From: an uncultured Verrucomicrobiota bacterium
Lineage (GTDB): Bacteria; Verrucomicrobiota; Verrucomicrobiia; Opitutales; Opitutaceae
DNA length: 64,000 bases
Assembly (NCBI GenBank): GCA_903876795.1
Contig: CAIRBK010000082.1
Coordinates: forward strand, 62,001 to 126,000
Direction: 5' to 3'
Shown here: positions 8,048 to 16,208 of the stretch, one piece after another
Layout of the letters: each line of letters begins with the position of its first letter
Position numbering within the stretch: position 1 is the first letter of the stretch
Program-made: the position numbers and the translations under genes
Notes under the pieces: model-generated
The model's input: only the letters and a program-made list of their open reading frames with translations
Databases searched by the model: none
Told to the model about the DNA's origin: nothing

Positions 8048-9348
8048 GCACCAGCACCATCAACATCGGCATCTGCGGCCTCGGCACCGTCGGCCAGGGC
8101 GTGTGGAAACACATCGAGTCCAACCGTGCGGCCCTCGAGTCCCGCCTTGGCGTCACGCTCAACCTTGCCCGCGCCTCCGTGCGCGACCTCAAAAAGAAGC
8201 GCACCGTGCGCATCGCCGCGTCGAAGCTCACCGACGATCCCTTCGAAATCGCGACCGATCCCGACATCCACATTGTGTGCGAATTGATCGGCGGCACCAC
8301 GCTGGCCCGCGATCTCACGCTCGCCGCGCTCGCCCTGGGCAAGACCGTCGTCTCCGCCAACAAGGCGCTTCTCTGCAAGCACGGTCCGGAGATATTCGCC
8401 GCCGCCCGCAAGCACGGCGGACACTTCTTCTTCGAAGCCTCCGTCGCCGGCGGCATACCGATCATCAAAGCCCTGCGAGAGGGCTTGGTCGCGAATCGTT
8501 TCAAGCTCATTTACGGCATCCTCAACGGCACCTGTAACTATATTCTCACGCGCATGGACCGCGAAGGTTTGTCCTACCCTGAGATTCTCAAGGAGGCCAA
8601 GGAGCTCGGCTACGCCGAGGCGGACGAGTCCCTCGACGTCGAGGGCTGGGATACCGCGCATAAGGCCTCCATTCTCGCCTTTCTGGCTCATGGCACCTGG
8701 GTACCCACCGAGAAGATGCTGGTCGAGGGTATCACCCAGATCACCCAGGCCGACCTGGCCTTCGCGCGAGAGCACGGTTTCGCCATCAAACTCCTCGCGG
8801 TGATCTCGCAAGAGACCGACACAGGAGAGGTTTTTGTGCGGGTCCATCCGACCCTGATCCCCAGGACCAAGGTGCTGGCCAACGTCAACGAGGTTTACAA
8901 CGGCATCTCCGTCACCGGTGACGTCGTTGGCGAGACCGTGTACATCGGACGCGGCGCCGGCCAGGATCCTACCGCCAGTGCGGTCATCAGCGACATCGTG
9001 GACGCCGTCATACTCCTTAACCGCGGCAACGCGCATCTGCCCGCCCCGATTGAGACAATGGCGCCGATCACCCCGCTTCAGAGTATCACCGGTGTTTATT
9101 ACCTGCGGCTTGAGGTGAAAGACGAGCCCGGTGTGTTGGCCAAGATCGCCACCGCCACCGCCACGCTCGGAGTGAGCATCGCCAGCGTGCTCCAGCGTCC
9201 CAGCGAGACCCCCGGTGCCGCCTCGTTGATACTCACCACCCACCGGTCCAATGAGAAAGCCATCCGTGCCACCGTTGCCCGCCTGAAAAAACTTTCCAGC
9301 GTCCTCGGCGAGCCCGTGCTGCTACGCATCGCCGACTTCGTCGGCTGA
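8044..9348 (+). CDS. hom: Homoserine dehydrogenase with ACT domain
   Basis: GICGLGTVGQGVWK, GGIPIIKALREGLVANR, GILNGTCNYILT; overlaps plsY by 4 nt. Confidence 0.96.
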   Translation: MSTSTINIGICGLGTVGQGVWKHIESNRAALESRLGVTLNLARASVRDLKKKRTVRIAASKLTDDPFEIATDPDIHIVCELIGGTTLARDLTLAALALGKTVVSANKALLCKHGPEIFAAARKHGGHFFFEASVAGGIPIIKALREGLVANRFKLIYGILNGTCNYILTRMDREGLSYPEILKEAKELGYAEADESLDVEGWDTAHKASILAFLAHGTWVPTEKMLVEGITQITQADLAFAREHGFAIKLLAVISQETDTGEVFVRVHPTLIPRTKVLANVNEVYNGISVTGDVVGETVYIGRGAGQDPTASAVISDIVDAVILLNRGNAHLPAPIETMAPITPLQSITGVYYLRLEVKDEPGVLAKIATATATLGVSIASVLQRPSETPGAASLILTTHRSNEKAIRATVARLKKLSSVLGEPVLLRIADFVG

Positions 9349-9377
9349 TTTGCCCCGACCCTTTACCAACCCAACCC

Positions 9378-10595
9378 ATGGCCAGAATTGTTCAAAAATA
9401 CGGCGGCACCTCGGTCGGTGACGTCGAACGCATCCGCAAGGTCGCCGAGCGTGTGAAGGCGATCCGCGACGAGGGCAATGAACTCGTCATTGTCGTGTCC
9501 GCCCGAGCCGGCGTCACCAATGAGCTTATCGCCCGCGCCAAAGCCGTGTGCGCCAACCCCAGCGAACGTGAGATGGACCAGCTCCTGGCCATCGGCGAGC
9601 AGGAGACCATCGCCCTCACCGCCATGGCCCTGCACGGCGTCGGAGTGGACGCCGTTTCCTACACCGGCGCGCAGGCTGGCATCTTTACCGACACCGTCCA
9701 CACCAAGGCCAAGATAAAGACGATCAACGCCAAACCCATCGAAAAAGACCTCAATGAGGGCAAGGTAGTCATCGTCGCCGGCTTTCAGGGCATCAACGGC
9801 GAGGGTGAGATCACCACGCTTGGCCGCGGCGGTTCCGATCTCACCGCCATCGCGCTCGCCGCCGCCCTCAAGGCCGACAAATGCGAAATCTACACCGACG
9901 TGGACGGAGTTTACACCGCAGACCCGCGTGTTGTTAAGGATGCCAAGAAGCTCCAGGAAATCTCCTACGATGAGATGCTCGAACTGGCTTCATCCGGCTC
10001 CAAGGTCATGCAGTCCCGCTCCGTCGAGTTCGCCGCCAAATACGGCGTCGTTTTCGAAGTCCGCTCCTCCTTTAACTACAACCCAGGAACCATCGTGAAA
10101 CAGGAAATCGCCTACATGGAAAAGGTCGTCGTGCGCGGTGTCGCCGTCGATAAGGATCAGGCCAAGGTCATCATCTCCAACATCCTCGACAAACCCGGCT
10201 CCGCCGCGAGGGTCTTCCGCGCCCTTGCCGACGCCAATATCATCGTCGATATGATCGTCCAAAACGTGGGCCGCAACGGCATCGCCAATCTCACGTTCAC
10301 CGTCCCGCTGACCGATAGCGTCAAGGCCCAGCGCACCATCGAGCCGTTGCTCGATGTCCTCGGCGGCGGCCAGATCGCCATCCACGAAAACATCGCCAAG
10401 CTCTCCGTGGTCGGCGTCGGCATGAAGACCCACTCCGGCGTTGCCGCCACGCTCTTCCAGGCCCTTGCGGACGCGGGCGTAAACATCGAGCTCATCAGCA
10501 CCTCCGAGATCAAAATCTCCGTCGTGATAGACAAGTCCAAGGCCGACGACGCCGCCCGCGTCGCCCACGCCGCGTTCGAATTGGATAAGCTCTGA
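9378..10595 (+). CDS. lysC: Aspartate kinase
   Basis: IVQKYGGTSVGDVERI, TLGRGGSDLTAIALAAAL, two ACT domains. Confidence 0.96.
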   Translation: MARIVQKYGGTSVGDVERIRKVAERVKAIRDEGNELVIVVSARAGVTNELIARAKAVCANPSEREMDQLLAIGEQETIALTAMALHGVGVDAVSYTGAQAGIFTDTVHTKAKIKTINAKPIEKDLNEGKVVIVAGFQGINGEGEITTLGRGGSDLTAIALAAALKADKCEIYTDVDGVYTADPRVVKDAKKLQEISYDEMLELASSGSKVMQSRSVEFAAKYGVVFEVRSSFNYNPGTIVKQEIAYMEKVVVRGVAVDKDQAKVIISNILDKPGSAARVFRALADANIIVDMIVQNVGRNGIANLTFTVPLTDSVKAQRTIEPLLDVLGGGQIAIHENIAKLSVVGVGMKTHSGVAATLFQALADAGVNIELISTSEIKISVVIDKSKADDAARVAHAAFELDKL

Positions 10596-10605
10596 TTTCA
10601 GAAAA

Positions 10606-10666
10606 CTGGCGGGTGGCGTGTAGTCAGTGGAGAGCATCCGATCTCCGATCACTCGCACCCCGCCAG
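10606..10666. other. Long imperfect inverted repeat/hairpin between lysC and thrC
   Basis: CTGGCGGG (10606-10613) pairs with CCCGCCAG (10659-10666); inner AGT/GGAG ... CTCC/ACT pairing. Confidence 0.55.
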
Positions 10667-10679
10667 ACGCCGCTTCAAA

Positions 10680-12041
10680 ATGCGCTTCGTCTCCACTCGC
10701 GGACAAACTCCTCCGCTCGGTTTCTCCGAAGCTGTCGCCACCGGTTTGGCACCGGACGGCGGACTCTATCTGCCGGAGACGCTTCCGCAGTTCACTGCGG
10801 CCGACCTGGCGCGGTTTGAACCGCTCCCTTATCACGCGTTGTGCTTCGAGTTTTTGAAACTCTTCGCCACCGACATCGAGCCGTCCATCCTCCGCGCGAT
10901 CATCGCCAAGAGCTACACGACCTTCACGCATCCCGACATCGCACCGATCGTGAAACTCGACGCGCGCACCTCGGTGCTGGAGCTTTTTCACGGACCGACA
11001 CTCGCCTTCAAAGACTTCGCCCTCCAGCTCCTCGGCAATCTCTACGAATACCAGTGCGCCAGGCGCGGGCAGACGATCAACGTCCTCGGGGCCACCTCCG
11101 GTGACACCGGCTCGGCCGCGATCCACGGACTGCTCGGGAAACCCGGAACCGCGATTTTTATTCTTTATCCGAACGGCCGCACCTCGCCGCTTCAAGAGCG
11201 CCAGATGGCCTGCACCGGAGCGGACAACGTTTATGCTCTCGCCATCGACGGCTCGTTCGACGACGCGCAAGCCGCGCTGAAGGAGCTTTTCGCCGACCAG
11301 GAGTTCCGCACGCGCCATCGCCTCTCGGCGGTCAACTCCATCAACCTGGCCCGCGTCCTGGCGCAGTGTGTTTATTATCTCTACGCCTACTTGCGGCTGC
11401 CTGCCGCGACGCGCGCGCAGACCGAATTTGTCGTGCCCACGGGTAATTTCGGCAACGTGCTGGCCGGCTGGTTGCTCCAGAAAATGGGCGTGCCGATCCA
11501 CAGCTTCAAGGTCGCCACCAACCAGAACGACATCCTCTACCGCCTTTTCACCACGGGTGATTACCGCGTCTCGTCGGTCGCGCCCTCACTGGCACCGTCG
11601 ATGGACATCCAGGTGTCTAGCAACTTTGAGCGCTTCCTCTACCTCAGTCTCGGACGCGACGCGGCCAAAGTTCGCGAGGTCATGCAGACGTTCAAGACAA
11701 CGGGAGGCTACACCTTCGAACATTTTGATCGCGACACGTTCAGTGCCTCGCGTTGCACCGACGCCCAGATCCCCGGGATCATCCGGGATGTTTACAACCA
11801 ATACCGCTACGTGCTTGATCCGCACACCGCGTGCGGGTTCGCCGACTTGGCGAAAGAACGCCCGAGCCTTGTGCTGGCGACGGCGAGCCCGGCGAAGTTT
11901 CCCGATACGATCATCGCCGCCATCGGCGTTGAACCGAAAGATCCGGGCTTGGAGATGCTCAAACAGCGTCCGCTCAAGAAGCACCTTTTGAAAGCCGAAG
12001 CCCCCGCAATCCGGGCTTTCATCGACGCCCACGCGGTCTGA
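10680..12041 (+). CDS. thrC: Threonine synthase
   Basis: MRFVSTRGQTPPLGFSEAVATGLAPDGGLYLPE, FHGPTLAFKDFALQLLG, LGATSGDTGSAA. Confidence 0.95.
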   Translation: MRFVSTRGQTPPLGFSEAVATGLAPDGGLYLPETLPQFTAADLARFEPLPYHALCFEFLKLFATDIEPSILRAIIAKSYTTFTHPDIAPIVKLDARTSVLELFHGPTLAFKDFALQLLGNLYEYQCARRGQTINVLGATSGDTGSAAIHGLLGKPGTAIFILYPNGRTSPLQERQMACTGADNVYALAIDGSFDDAQAALKELFADQEFRTRHRLSAVNSINLARVLAQCVYYLYAYLRLPAATRAQTEFVVPTGNFGNVLAGWLLQKMGVPIHSFKVATNQNDILYRLFTTGDYRVSSVAPSLAPSMDIQVSSNFERFLYLSLGRDAAKVREVMQTFKTTGGYTFEHFDRDTFSASRCTDAQIPGIIRDVYNQYRYVLDPHTACGFADLAKERPSLVLATASPAKFPDTIIAAIGVEPKDPGLEMLKQRPLKKHLLKAEAPAIRAFIDAHAV

Positions 12042-12110
12042 TGCGCCTCCGCAACGCCGGCGCAAAAACGACTCGACAAGCACCGCAGACCCCGGATTGT
12101 TCGACCAGAC

Positions 12111-12179
12111 ATGCAGTTCTCCTCGATCATTTTCGCGATTATCATTGCCCGTCAGCCCGGGCAGGATGTCGCGGCGTGA
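12111..12179 (+). CDS. Putative 22-aa Ile-rich attenuator leader peptide MQFSSIIFAIIIARQPGQDVAA
   Basis: Short ATG...TGA ORF with Ile codons ATC ATT ... ATT ATC ATT, directly before mutually exclusive hairpins and a terminator upstream of cimA. Confidence 0.8.
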   Translation: MQFSSIIFAIIIARQPGQDVAA

Positions 12180-12207
12180 ACCCTAAGGACCACCCAAGAC
12201 TTTCCTG

Positions 12208-12238
12208 AAACCCCGGGCCATTCGCCCGGGGTTTTTTG
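12208..12238 (+). terminator. Intrinsic terminator, terminator arm of the cimA attenuator
   Basis: AAACCCCGGGC-cattc-GCCCGGGGTTT followed by TTT. Confidence 0.92.
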
Positions 12239-12304
12239 TTTTTCCAACCTTCACCAATCCGCCCAACCTCCTCCTTTCGGCGCACCGTCTCCGATCCTCT
12301 TCCC

Positions 12305-13870
12305 ATGAGCACCCAGACCGTTAAAATCTACGACACCACCCTGCGTGATGGCACCCAGGGTGAAGGCATCAGCTTCTCGGTCACGGATAAACTCCTGATT
12401 ACCGAGAAGCTGGACCAGTTCGGCGTAGACTACATCGAGGGCGGCTTTCCGGGCTCCAATCCGCGCGACATCACTTATTTCCAGGAGGTGCGCTCCTTGA
12501 AACTCAAGCACGCCCGCCTCGCCGCGTTCGGTGCCACCCGCCGTGCCGGCATCAAGGCCTCCGAGGACGCCCAACTGAAGACCCTGCTCGACAGCGGCAT
12601 GCCCGTGCTGACCATCGTCGGTAAAACCTGGACCCTTCACGTCACCGAAATCATCCGCACCACTCTCGAGGAGAACCTCGCGATGATCGAGGATTCCGTC
12701 CGCTATCTCTCGGCCCAAGGCCGCGAGGTCATTTACGACGCCGAGCACTTTTTCGACGGTTACAAGGCCAATCCCGACTACGCGCTGCAAACCCTCGCGG
12801 CGGCCGTTCGCGGCGGGGTGAGCAACCTTTCCCTGTGCGACACCAACGGTGGCACGCTGGTCGAGGACTTTAAGAGCATCGTCGGCCGCGTCGTGAAGGA
12901 GTTTGGCGGCGACAAGGTCGGCGTGCATTGCCACAACGACAGCGGTCTCGGCGTGGCGCTCTCGCTCGCGGGCATCGGAGCGGGCGCGACGCTCGTTCAA
13001 GGCACCGCCAATGGCTACGGTGAGCGCACCGGCAACGCCAATCTCTTCACCATCCTGCCGAGTCTCTTCCTCAAGATGGACCGCACCGCGCGCTGCGCCG
13101 CCAACCTCGGCCAGCTCCGCGACCTTTCGCTCTACTTCGACGAACTCGCCAATCTAAAGCCCGACACCAAGGCGCCCTACATCGGCGCATCGGCTTTTGC
13201 GCACAAGGGCGGTCTCCACGCCAACGCCGCGCAGAAGGTGAAGTCCTCCTACGAGCACATCGACCCGGCGTTGGTGGGCAACCGCACGCGCGTGCTCGTC
13301 TCCGACATGGCCGGTCGATCCAGCATCGCCATGAAGGCGAAGGAGCTCGGCCTCGATCTCGATGAGAAATCGCCCGCGATGAAGACCCTTATCGACGAAC
13401 TCAAGGACCTCGAGTTCCGCGGCTACGAGTTCGAGGCGGCCGACGCCTCGCTCAAGCTCCTCATAGCCCGTGCCCTCGACCAGACCCAAACCTTCTTTGC
13501 GGTCGATGGCTACCGCGTGAGCGTTGAGCGTCGCGGGGGGGAAACCATTTCCGAGGCCACGGTTAAGCTCAACATCAACGGACGCTCCACCCATACCGTT
13601 GCCGAGTGCTCCGGTCCGGTGGGCGCCCTGGACAAGGCCCTGCGCTTGGCACTGGAGGACGTTTATCCGCAGCTCAAGCGGCTCGAGTTGCGCGATTACA
13701 AGGTGCGCATCCTCGACAGCCGTGCCGGTGCCAATGCCCGCACCCGCGTTTTCATTGAAAGCGGTGACGGCCGGGAGATATGGGGCACGGTCGGCGTGAG
13801 CGACAACATCATCGACGCTTCCTGGGACGCGCTCACCGACGCGGTGAACTTCCTGCTGCTTCAGGGCTGA
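12305..13870 (+). CDS. cimA: Citramalate synthase
   Basis: VKIYDTTLRDGTQGEGISFSVTDKLLITEKLDQFGVDYIEGGFPGSNPRD; citramalate/isopropylmalate synthase family with C-terminal regulatory domain. Confidence 0.93.
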   Translation: MSTQTVKIYDTTLRDGTQGEGISFSVTDKLLITEKLDQFGVDYIEGGFPGSNPRDITYFQEVRSLKLKHARLAAFGATRRAGIKASEDAQLKTLLDSGMPVLTIVGKTWTLHVTEIIRTTLEENLAMIEDSVRYLSAQGREVIYDAEHFFDGYKANPDYALQTLAAAVRGGVSNLSLCDTNGGTLVEDFKSIVGRVVKEFGGDKVGVHCHNDSGLGVALSLAGIGAGATLVQGTANGYGERTGNANLFTILPSLFLKMDRTARCAANLGQLRDLSLYFDELANLKPDTKAPYIGASAFAHKGGLHANAAQKVKSSYEHIDPALVGNRTRVLVSDMAGRSSIAMKAKELGLDLDEKSPAMKTLIDELKDLEFRGYEFEAADASLKLLIARALDQTQTFFAVDGYRVSVERRGGETISEATVKLNINGRSTHTVAECSGPVGALDKALRLALEDVYPQLKRLELRDYKVRILDSRAGANARTRVFIESGDGREIWGTVGVSDNIIDASWDALTDAVNFLLLQG

Positions 13871-13905
13871 TACGCCGGCGTCACCCTGACCCTGCGAATC
13901 AAGTC

Positions 13906-14823
13906 GTGCGCTGCTTTTACCACCCGGATTATACCTTCCCCCTGCCGGAGGCTCATCCGTTTCCTATGGATAAGTTTTGGCGTGCGGTCGCGATGATCCG
14001 CGAAGCGGCCCCGCCGGGTATTTCCATCCACGGAGTCGAACCGGCGCCCGAGTCGGAACTCCTGCGTGTCCATACCCCGGCCTATCTCAATAAAATCCGC
14101 TCCGGTTGTCTCGAACCCGCGGAAGCGGTGAAACTCGGCCTCCCGGCCGGGGAGGCCCTGCTCGTCCGTTCGCGCCTGGAGGTTGCCGGCACGATCGCCG
14201 CGATGGAGGCGGCTTTGGCCGACGGCCTGGCCTGCAACCTCGCCGGCGGGACTCACCACGCCTTTGCCGATCGCGGGCTTGGCTACTGCGTGCTCAACGA
14301 TGTGGCCGTCGCCATCCGCGCCCTGCATGTCCGCCGTCCGAACGCCCGGGTCGCAGTGATTGATACAGACGCCCACCAGGGCAACGGCACGCATGGTATC
14401 TTTGCTTCAGACGACCGGGTCTTCACCTATTCTATTCACGTGGGCAAAAACTACCCCGCCCACAAAACTCCGGGGCGGCTCGACGTCGAGCTGCCGCGCT
14501 ACGTCGGAGGACTGGATTATCTTGAGCAACTGGAAGCCACGTTGGCGCCTGCACTCAAGGAATTCGCCCCCGATCTTGCGTTCTGGATAGCCGGTGCGGA
14601 TCCCCACGAAAACGACCGCTTCGGGCAAATGCGTCTGACCGACGCGGACATGGCTACCCGTGACCGTCATGTGCTCGATCTCGTCACTCGCATGCGCGTC
14701 GCGACCGTCGTCCTTTATGGCGGTGGTTACAACCGGGATCGCGTTCACACCGCACGTCTGCACGCGCGCACCGTGCTTCTGACCGCCAGTTATCACGCTG
14801 ACCACTACGGATGGGAGAAATAG
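13906..14823 (+). CDS. Histone deacetylase-like / acetylpolyamine aminohydrolase family protein
   Basis: LAGGTHHAFADRGLGYCVLNDVAVA, VIDTDAHQGNGTHGIF, YGGGYNRD; GTG start. Confidence 0.88.
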   Translation: MRCFYHPDYTFPLPEAHPFPMDKFWRAVAMIREAAPPGISIHGVEPAPESELLRVHTPAYLNKIRSGCLEPAEAVKLGLPAGEALLVRSRLEVAGTIAAMEAALADGLACNLAGGTHHAFADRGLGYCVLNDVAVAIRALHVRRPNARVAVIDTDAHQGNGTHGIFASDDRVFTYSIHVGKNYPAHKTPGRLDVELPRYVGGLDYLEQLEATLAPALKEFAPDLAFWIAGADPHENDRFGQMRLTDADMATRDRHVLDLVTRMRVATVVLYGGGYNRDRVHTARLHARTVLLTASYHADHYGWEK

Positions 14824-14893
14824 CCTGGGTCGTGCAGCAAGGGGCTTGAGGCGAAGCCAGGACGCAGAAGGCTGTGAAACCCGACGGACGAGT

Positions 14894-15547
14894 TTACCAA
14901 CCGGCAAATGTCTTGGCGACGGCCGCCTTGTCAGATGCTCCAAAAAAAGAAGTTCCGGCCACGAAGGTATCGACGCCGGCCGCGCGGCATTCCGGTCCGG
15001 TTTTGAGATCAATGCCGCCGTCCACTTCCAGGCGGAACGTCAGACCTCGCTCCTCTCGCCAACGGGCAATCCGTGCGATCTTGGGCAGCATGTCCCGACG
15101 AAAGGGTTGCCCGCCGAAGCCGGGCTGCACGGTCATGACGAGAACGAGGTCTACCTTGTCCAGGAGGGGTTCGATGGCCTCGGCGGGGGTGCCGGGGTTT
15201 AAAACGATGCCGTTTTGGCAGCCCAGCTCGCGAATGCGCGCAAGGGTGGAGGTGTGGTCGTAGACGGGCTCGATGTGGATGCTGATGAGATTGGAGCCGG
15301 CCTTGGCAAAGGGCTCTATGTAGCGCTGGGGCTCGTCGAGCATCAAGTGGGTGTCAAAAAACAGCCCTGAGATTTTCCGCAGTGCGGCGACGGTCTGCGG
15401 ACCGAAGGTCAGATTGGGGACGAAGTGGCCGTCCATGATGTCGAGATGGATCCAGGGGATGCCAAGGGACTCGACGCTCTGGGCGCTGGAGGCGAGGTTG
15501 GCGTGGTCGCCGGCGAGAATCGATGGGGCGAGGACAGTGGCGTGCAT
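14894..15547 (-). CDS. rpe: Ribulose-phosphate 3-epimerase
   Basis: LAPSILAGDHANL, WIHLDIMDGHFVPNLTFGP, VLVMTVQPGFGGQPF. Confidence 0.95.
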   Translation of the reverse strand: MHATVLAPSILAGDHANLASSAQSVESLGIPWIHLDIMDGHFVPNLTFGPQTVAALRKISGLFFDTHLMLDEPQRYIEPFAKAGSNLISIHIEPVYDHTSTLARIRELGCQNGIVLNPGTPAEAIEPLLDKVDLVLVMTVQPGFGGQPFRRDMLPKIARIARWREERGLTFRLEVDGGIDLKTGPECRAAGVDTFVAGTSFFGASDKAAVAKTFAGW

Positions 15548-15698
15548 GCGGAAAACCCCAATCAGGGGGCTGGGTATGCGCGAAGAAAAGCGCGAATTGC
15601 GGACTGAAGAGGGAAGGGGGCGATTTTAGGGAGAGGATCGCCCCGGGTAGGCCCGGGAAATCCCGGACGATTATTACGAGGAGAATCGAGCTAAACGA

Positions 15699-16208
15699 TC
15701 ACCACACATCAAGCGCGGCGGCGCGGATGTTTTTGGCCAGGGTTTCAGCCAGGACGGGCACGTTTTGGAATTCGGCCTGAAGTTGTTGGCCACCATCGGT
15801 GAAGATTTCGCGCGTGGCCGTGGCCTTGCGCTTTTCGAAGAGAAAGGTGTTCGTGCGGTTGTCGCGCAGGGATATTTCAGAATCGAGTGAGATATCGAAG
15901 TTGCGGGCCAGGCCACTGTCGCCGGGGCGACCGGTTTTCTCCGAACGGCCATATTTCACGAGGCGCACGGTGAGCGTGGCATCGGCCTCTTCGGGCGTGT
16001 TTACCAAGATGATGCGCGGGTCGTTCAGAAAGGATTCGCGTAGCAGGGTGCTGACTACGGCGACCGCCTGGGGAACCTTGGCCTCGTTGACGACCGGGGC
16101 GACATAGAGCGTGCGAAAAGAGAGCTGGCCGCCTGTCCCGAGTTTGTAGTTGGAGCAGCCGGTCGAGAAAAGAAGAGCTGCCGCACAGAGAAAAATGAAT
16201 GCACGCAT
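15699..16208 (-). CDS. LptE-like LPS-assembly lipoprotein
   Basis: Lipobox LLFSTGCSNYKL; LptE-like pattern (YVAPVVNEAKVPQAVAVVSTLLRESFLND). Confidence 0.7.
   Translation of the reverse strand: MRAFIFLCAAALLFSTGCSNYKLGTGGQLSFRTLYVAPVVNEAKVPQAVAVVSTLLRESFLNDPRIILVNTPEEADATLTVRLVKYGRSEKTGRPGDSGLARNFDISLDSEISLRDNRTNTFLFEKRKATATREIFTDGGQQLQAEFQNVPVLAETLAKNIRAAALDVW

Follow-up and report, generated by a model that had tools for sequence, protein, structure and literature searches.

A putative isoleucine leader-peptide attenuator upstream of cimA in Opitutaceae (Verrucomicrobiota), with related leaders before ilvA-like genes

Known leader-peptide attenuators and the cimA leader

Leader-peptide attenuators have been described in Proteobacteria (PMC1183508), Actinobacteria (PMC1262725, PMC11857589) and Firmicutes (PMC2965389). 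In the enterobacterial trp, his, leu, thr, ilvGMEDA and ilvBN systems, an ORF rich in codons for the cognate amino acid ends at a stop codon shortly afterwards and is followed by a biosynthetic gene, and an RNA segment, region 3, is common to the antiterminator and to a U-tracted terminator (PMC1183508). The locus upstream of cimA analysed here resembles these systems in each of these features. It differs from them in that the enterobacterial ilv leaders carry Ile, Val and Leu codons whereas this one has the mixture replaced by Ile only, in that it precedes cimA, or else a short ilvA-like gene, in Verrucomicrobiota, and in that the start codon is probably at or near the RNA 5′ end and hairpin 1:2 is without covariation support. 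The actinobacterial trp and ilvB candidates (PMC1262725) and C. glutamicum ilvBNC (PMC11857589) likewise combine a leader peptide with a terminator, involve branched-chain genes and were recognized by comparison outside Proteobacteria. In the candidates of PMC1262725, mixed Ile/Val/Leu runs overlap the terminator hairpin and the mode of action is unclear, whereas here the Ile codons lie apart from the terminator, at a spacing suited to the classic mode; neither paper mentions cimA for its attenuators. The His leader peptides before hisS and hisZ in Firmicutes (Naville and Gautheret, PMC2965389) similarly extended attenuation to another phylum by comparative analysis, although amino acid, gene and phylum are different here, and the main text of that paper names no Verrucomicrobiota, citramalate or isoleucine. 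A search of the open literature returned nothing relevant on leader peptides together with Verrucomicrobia/Verrucomicrobiota or with cimA, in agreement with a preliminary description of this DNA which knew of no isoleucine attenuator upstream of cimA in Verrucomicrobiota. The element is very probably of the classic attenuator type, with both its phylum and its gene apparently new for that type, and would bring leader-peptide attenuation to Verrucomicrobiota and to the enzyme through which the threonine-independent route to isoleucine is entered.

The window, i.e., the whole 64,000-nucleotide stretch of Opitutaceae DNA that was analysed, contains the following features at this locus.

10680..12041, forward strand: thrC, the upstream neighbour (TIGR00260 over cut-off; gene order)
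12073..12078, forward strand: TCGACA, -35-like promoter element for the leader transcript (motif kept upstream of leaders)
12111 (ATG) to 12179 (TGA), forward strand: leader peptide ORF MQFSSIIFAIIIARQPGQDVAA plus stop, 22 codons (sequence; Ile-rich ORF with PG.....A end kept in relatives)
12126..12146, forward strand: putative regulatory Ile codons (2 + 3), starting at 12126, 12129, 12138, 12141 and 12144
12147..12155, forward strand: region 1 (GCCCGTCAG), with GCCCG able to pair with 12158-12162 (fold)
12155..12175, forward strand: region 2, 5′ arm of the antiterminator, GCCCGGG CAGGA... (fold, swap tests, sequence)
12198..12218, forward strand: region 3, GAC..TCCTG AAAC CCCGGGC (fold, covariation, swap tests)
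12207..12238, forward strand: intrinsic terminator GAAACCCCGGGC-CATTC-GCCCGGGGTTTT plus T-run (terminator scan, fold, covariation)
12305..13870, forward strand: cimA, citramalate synthase, 521 aa, with HMGL-like, HCS_D2 and LeuA_dimer domains (NCBIfam, Pfam)

The earlier naming of the downstream gene as citramalate synthase is borne out by a score of 687 bits against TIGR00977 (cut-off 450). Genes for threonine synthase, aspartate kinase and homoserine dehydrogenase lie upstream of the leader, and the order hom-lysC-thrC-leader-cimA is found in other genera too. A lysC-like 3′ end (MISTSEIKIS...) is also seen just upstream of cimA in many phyla (L200, L204, L205, L210, L214 and others), the lysC-cimA neighbourhood being widespread.

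Leader anatomy, conservation and alternative RNA structures

The 22-codon ORF with two Ile runs is present in the window as first described, and 0/592 random 420-nt stretches of the window contained a mini-ORF in which 5 Ile codons fall within 12. The last Ile codon (12144) lies 12 nt before region 2, and this spacing is general: in 49 of 54 leaders, the last Ile codon falls 4-5 codons (12-15 nt) before region 2, and likewise in 49 the stop codon is reached 7-8 codons after region 2 begins. Ile accounts for 53%, Val for 2.9% and Leu for 1.5% of the residues at positions -12 to -4 relative to region 2, with 279 Ile codons before region 2 and 6 after it across the same set. The mRNA covered by a ribosome usually reaches about 12-15 nt beyond the codon in the A site. 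With such a footprint, a ribosome awaiting Ile-tRNA would cover region 1 and free region 2, as had been proposed from the position of region 1 next to the second Ile run. The rarity of Val and Leu codons suggests that the sensor is Ile-specific, in keeping with the role of cimA, from whose product 2-ketobutyrate and Ile are derived.

Within the family of the window, 150 Opitutaceae genomes were examined, 149 of them with a CimA match (in some only to distant paralogues). In 40 of the 90 cimA upstream regions read, an Ile-rich mini-ORF is retained with a CCCGGGC-type terminator behind it, and a covariance model was built from 39 of these leaders. Overlaying matches of this model on the CimA matches places the leader at cimA in 45/150 genomes, with cimA lacking it in 105/150, including four congeners. 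The genome of the window has no strong match other than this leader, which scores 95 bits against 26.5 for the runner-up. Weak matches there (26 bits, C97) were rejected as further leaders for want of an Ile ORF, and most weak matches of a second model correspond to a terminator and little else. The search for further attenuators in the genome covered ilvB and hisG, and none was found at either. In other phyla, no candidate Ile leader before cimA was convincing, the Ile-looking ORFs there being mostly lysC ends.

A motif of the form T[CG]GACA, TTGACA or TTGCCA occurs upstream of 53/55 leaders, 29-57 nt before the start codon in 50, and T[CG]GACA or TTGACA is present in 5% of random 75-nt windows. 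In the window, the -10 element would lie near 12095-12101 and the transcription start within a few nt of the ATG. Since normal promoter spacing would put the RNA start usually 0-15 nt upstream of the ORF, a leaderless or almost leaderless mRNA is probable.

The terminator placed earlier at about 12208-12238 is confirmed, with a helix (12207-12235) of 12 pairs at -23 kcal/mol and a shuffle z of -5.0; with the T-run that follows, it ranks first among terminator-like sites within 9000-16000 of the window, and cimA starts 67 nt after it. The 135-nt leader folds with a z of -4.7, and 0/200 shuffles were equally stable. Region 3 is common to the two structures, as 3′ arm of the antiterminator and 5′ arm of the terminator. 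The 7-bp pairing already noticed, of GCCCGGG (12155-12161) with CCCGGGC (12212-12218), is part of a longer 2:3 helix with additional pairs of CAGGA (12162-12166) with TCCTG (12203-12207) and GTC (12168-12170) with GAC (12198-12200), and an energy of -32.7 kcal/mol (12153-12220). For an RNA ending before the 3′ arm of the terminator, the antiterminator is the minimum-energy fold, and the pattern of region 2, region 3 and terminator occurs once in the window and in none of 100 shuffles. Hairpin 1:2, formed by GCCCG (12147-12151), N6 and CGGGC (12158-12162), also forms in the window RNA.

Covariation of all three helices had been proposed as a check and is seen for two. In the terminator, 90% of pairs are kept over 48 leaders and 5 pairs are changed on both sides (A-U to G-C 17, C-G to U-A 9, G-C to A-U 10), giving 40 two-sided cells vs 9.8 in shuffles, with 0/500 shuffles as good. 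Antiterminator arms pair better with their own than with swapped partners (-28.1 vs -23.2 kcal/mol, sd 0.5; 0/5000 shuffles as good); 12/5000 shuffles were as good for 13 divergent representatives and 0/20000 for the arms of 14 representatives without the core, where all shuffle and swap tests remove effects of relatedness only in part. The arms differ between lineages as matched pairs, including CAGGA/TCCTG in the window, TGGAGA/TCTCCA (L080), TGGAAAC/GTTTCCA (L082) and CAGAA/TTCTG (L034). Counting by fixed alignment columns gives weak covariation for the antiterminator, as its register is not constant across lineages. RNAalifold on a MAFFT alignment returned only a 5-pair core, a spurious result of the CCCGGG-like sequence shared by regions 2, 3 and 4, and was replaced by the swap tests and counts on named structures. 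Hairpin 1:2 is possible in most leaders and shows no preference for its own partner (468/5000 region-1 swaps as good), so this part of the earlier description stands as a foldable structure in the window and not as a covarying one.

Proposed mechanism and alternative explanations

Taken together, these features very probably represent an attenuator of transcription that works through the ribosome and responds to charged tRNA-Ile. The locus joins an ORF of cognate codons, a terminator before the gene, an antiterminator arm shared with that terminator, the placement of the codons and a gene for the amino acid sensed. Comparison among leaders supports this predicted function through the Ile ORF, its spacing, covariation of terminator and antiterminator, the promoter-like element and the cognate gene; translation of the ORF, termination of the RNA and control of read-through by Ile are predicted. 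Transcription would begin shortly upstream of the leader ORF. With Ile-tRNA in good supply, the ribosome would translate through to the stop codon, which lies about 22 nt downstream of the 5′ end of region 2, and would there mask or release region 2, allowing region 3 to pair with region 4 and RNA polymerase to stop near 12238. When Ile-tRNA is short, the ribosome would stall on the Ile codons with its leading edge about at the start of region 2, and region 2 would pair with region 3 (12155-12170 with 12198-12218), thereby blocking the terminator and permitting transcription of cimA. The preliminary reading as an Ile leader-peptide attenuator at cimA is thus upheld by the conserved mini-ORF and covarying alternative pairings in the family, while its scope is to be widened: the leader is found at cimA in the family but not at cimA only, as the same leader precedes an ilvA-like gene elsewhere.

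A very improbable alternative is that the leader acts via translation or Rho, or that its peptide senses free isoleucine in the ribosome tunnel in the manner of an arrest peptide rather than a shortage of Ile-tRNA. The conserved C-terminal half of the peptide (PG.....A) can be read as a constraint on the peptide, but its conserved codons coincide with an RNA pairing segment, region 2, and the C-terminal sequence varies by lineage (PGQDDAA, PGHGDMA, SGRRRVAV) together with the pairing partner. In addition, an arrest peptide would need no runs of the cognate codon, and a U-tracted intrinsic terminator is present.

It is very improbable that the structure is the ordinary terminator of a hom-lysC-thrC operon with an Ile-rich ORF in front of it by chance. 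Its location 166 nt after the thrC stop would allow it to end read-through from thrC, yet the whole set of ORF, spacing, antiterminator and terminator recurs at loci with a gene other than thrC upstream (G005, G075) and also before ilvA-like genes. The covarying 2:3 pairing and the promoter-like element between thrC and the ORF likewise argue against a simple operon end and for the attenuator. A T-box or other metabolite-binding riboswitch is scarcely credible: Ile T-boxes with the same regulatory logic exist in other phyla, but no Rfam family, T-box included, reaches its gathering score on the leader, and the conserved information is that of a coding ORF and not of an aptamer.

Related leaders before ilvA-like genes and other amino acid genes

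In genomes with a leaderless cimA, strong matches of the covariance model lie just before an ilvA-like (threonine deaminase) gene. Among the 150 Opitutaceae genomes, 16 have the leader at ilvA, 45 have it at cimA and none has both, compared to an expected overlap of 4.8 (hypergeometric P 0.002, uncorrected for relatedness). The two leader-linked ilvA-like proteins that were tested (315-339 aa) each contain a single PALP domain and lack an ACT domain. Their top-scoring models are those for threonine ammonia-lyase, with scores under the respective cut-offs, so that the name ilvA for the leader-linked gene rests on resemblance and context. A close ilvA of any kind is present in 15/45 genomes with the leader at cimA vs 62/105 of the others. 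In the genome of the window, ilvA was not found (best E 3.5e-12), and the genome uses cimA. Two congeners (G041, G097) have the leader at ilvA and a leaderless cimA, and G134 has neither leader. On a partly resolved CimA tree of 29 family members, 7 rows with the leader at ilvA need 7 changes and 14 rows with the leader at cimA need 7, indicating that leader state is interleaved.

Outside Opitutaceae, leaders at ilvA are convincing in six genomes from three families of the class (G348, G657, G319, G322; G741; G610) and doubtful in G527, from a fourth; no leader at cimA was seen in these families. This distribution suggests that the ilvA position may be older than the cimA position. The likeness of leader ends at the two genes (RRPGHGDMA at cimA, L077; RRPGHGDVA at ilvA, L136) speaks for one homologous element rather than one shaped twice. 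The chances are about even that a single homologous Ile attenuator has been passed between two alternative first enzymes of isoleucine synthesis, guarding a short ilvA-like gene in several families of the class and part of Opitutaceae and cimA in others of that family, frequently ones that lack ilvA, with one gene per genome and never both. Such alternation appears to be unreported. It would mark, from sequence alone, which entry enzyme stands under isoleucine control in each genome, and could be tested as an example of a regulatory RNA that switches targets inside one pathway, and the roughly 60 natural leader variants are material for studying antiterminator evolution.

Unlike those at cimA, ilvA-linked leaders mix Met (ATG) into the Ile runs, e.g., AMIIGMMIIIR (L136, L137, L141, L143-L146, L160, L161). 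Leader peptides of other composition were also encountered. His-run peptides with terminators occur at L281 (G074; 1488, minus strand; MVLNHHHHHSS), where the next gene looks like hisG, L116 (G096; 1491, minus strand; MIRTHHHHAT) and L123 (G130; 1497, plus strand; MVLNHHHHHAC), and are predicted to act in histidine attenuation in genera g38 and g41 of Opitutaceae; the hisG of the window's own genome has no such leader. In another family of the phylum (f22), Ile/Val-rich leader peptides lie upstream of an ilvB-like gene (L118, G490, 1468-1883; L110, G314), and G490 has two in tandem, each with its own terminator. At L109 (G021 C56:233073-233939), an ilvA-like gene with in-frame stops lies behind an intact-looking leader, and is possibly a pseudogene with a surviving attenuator.
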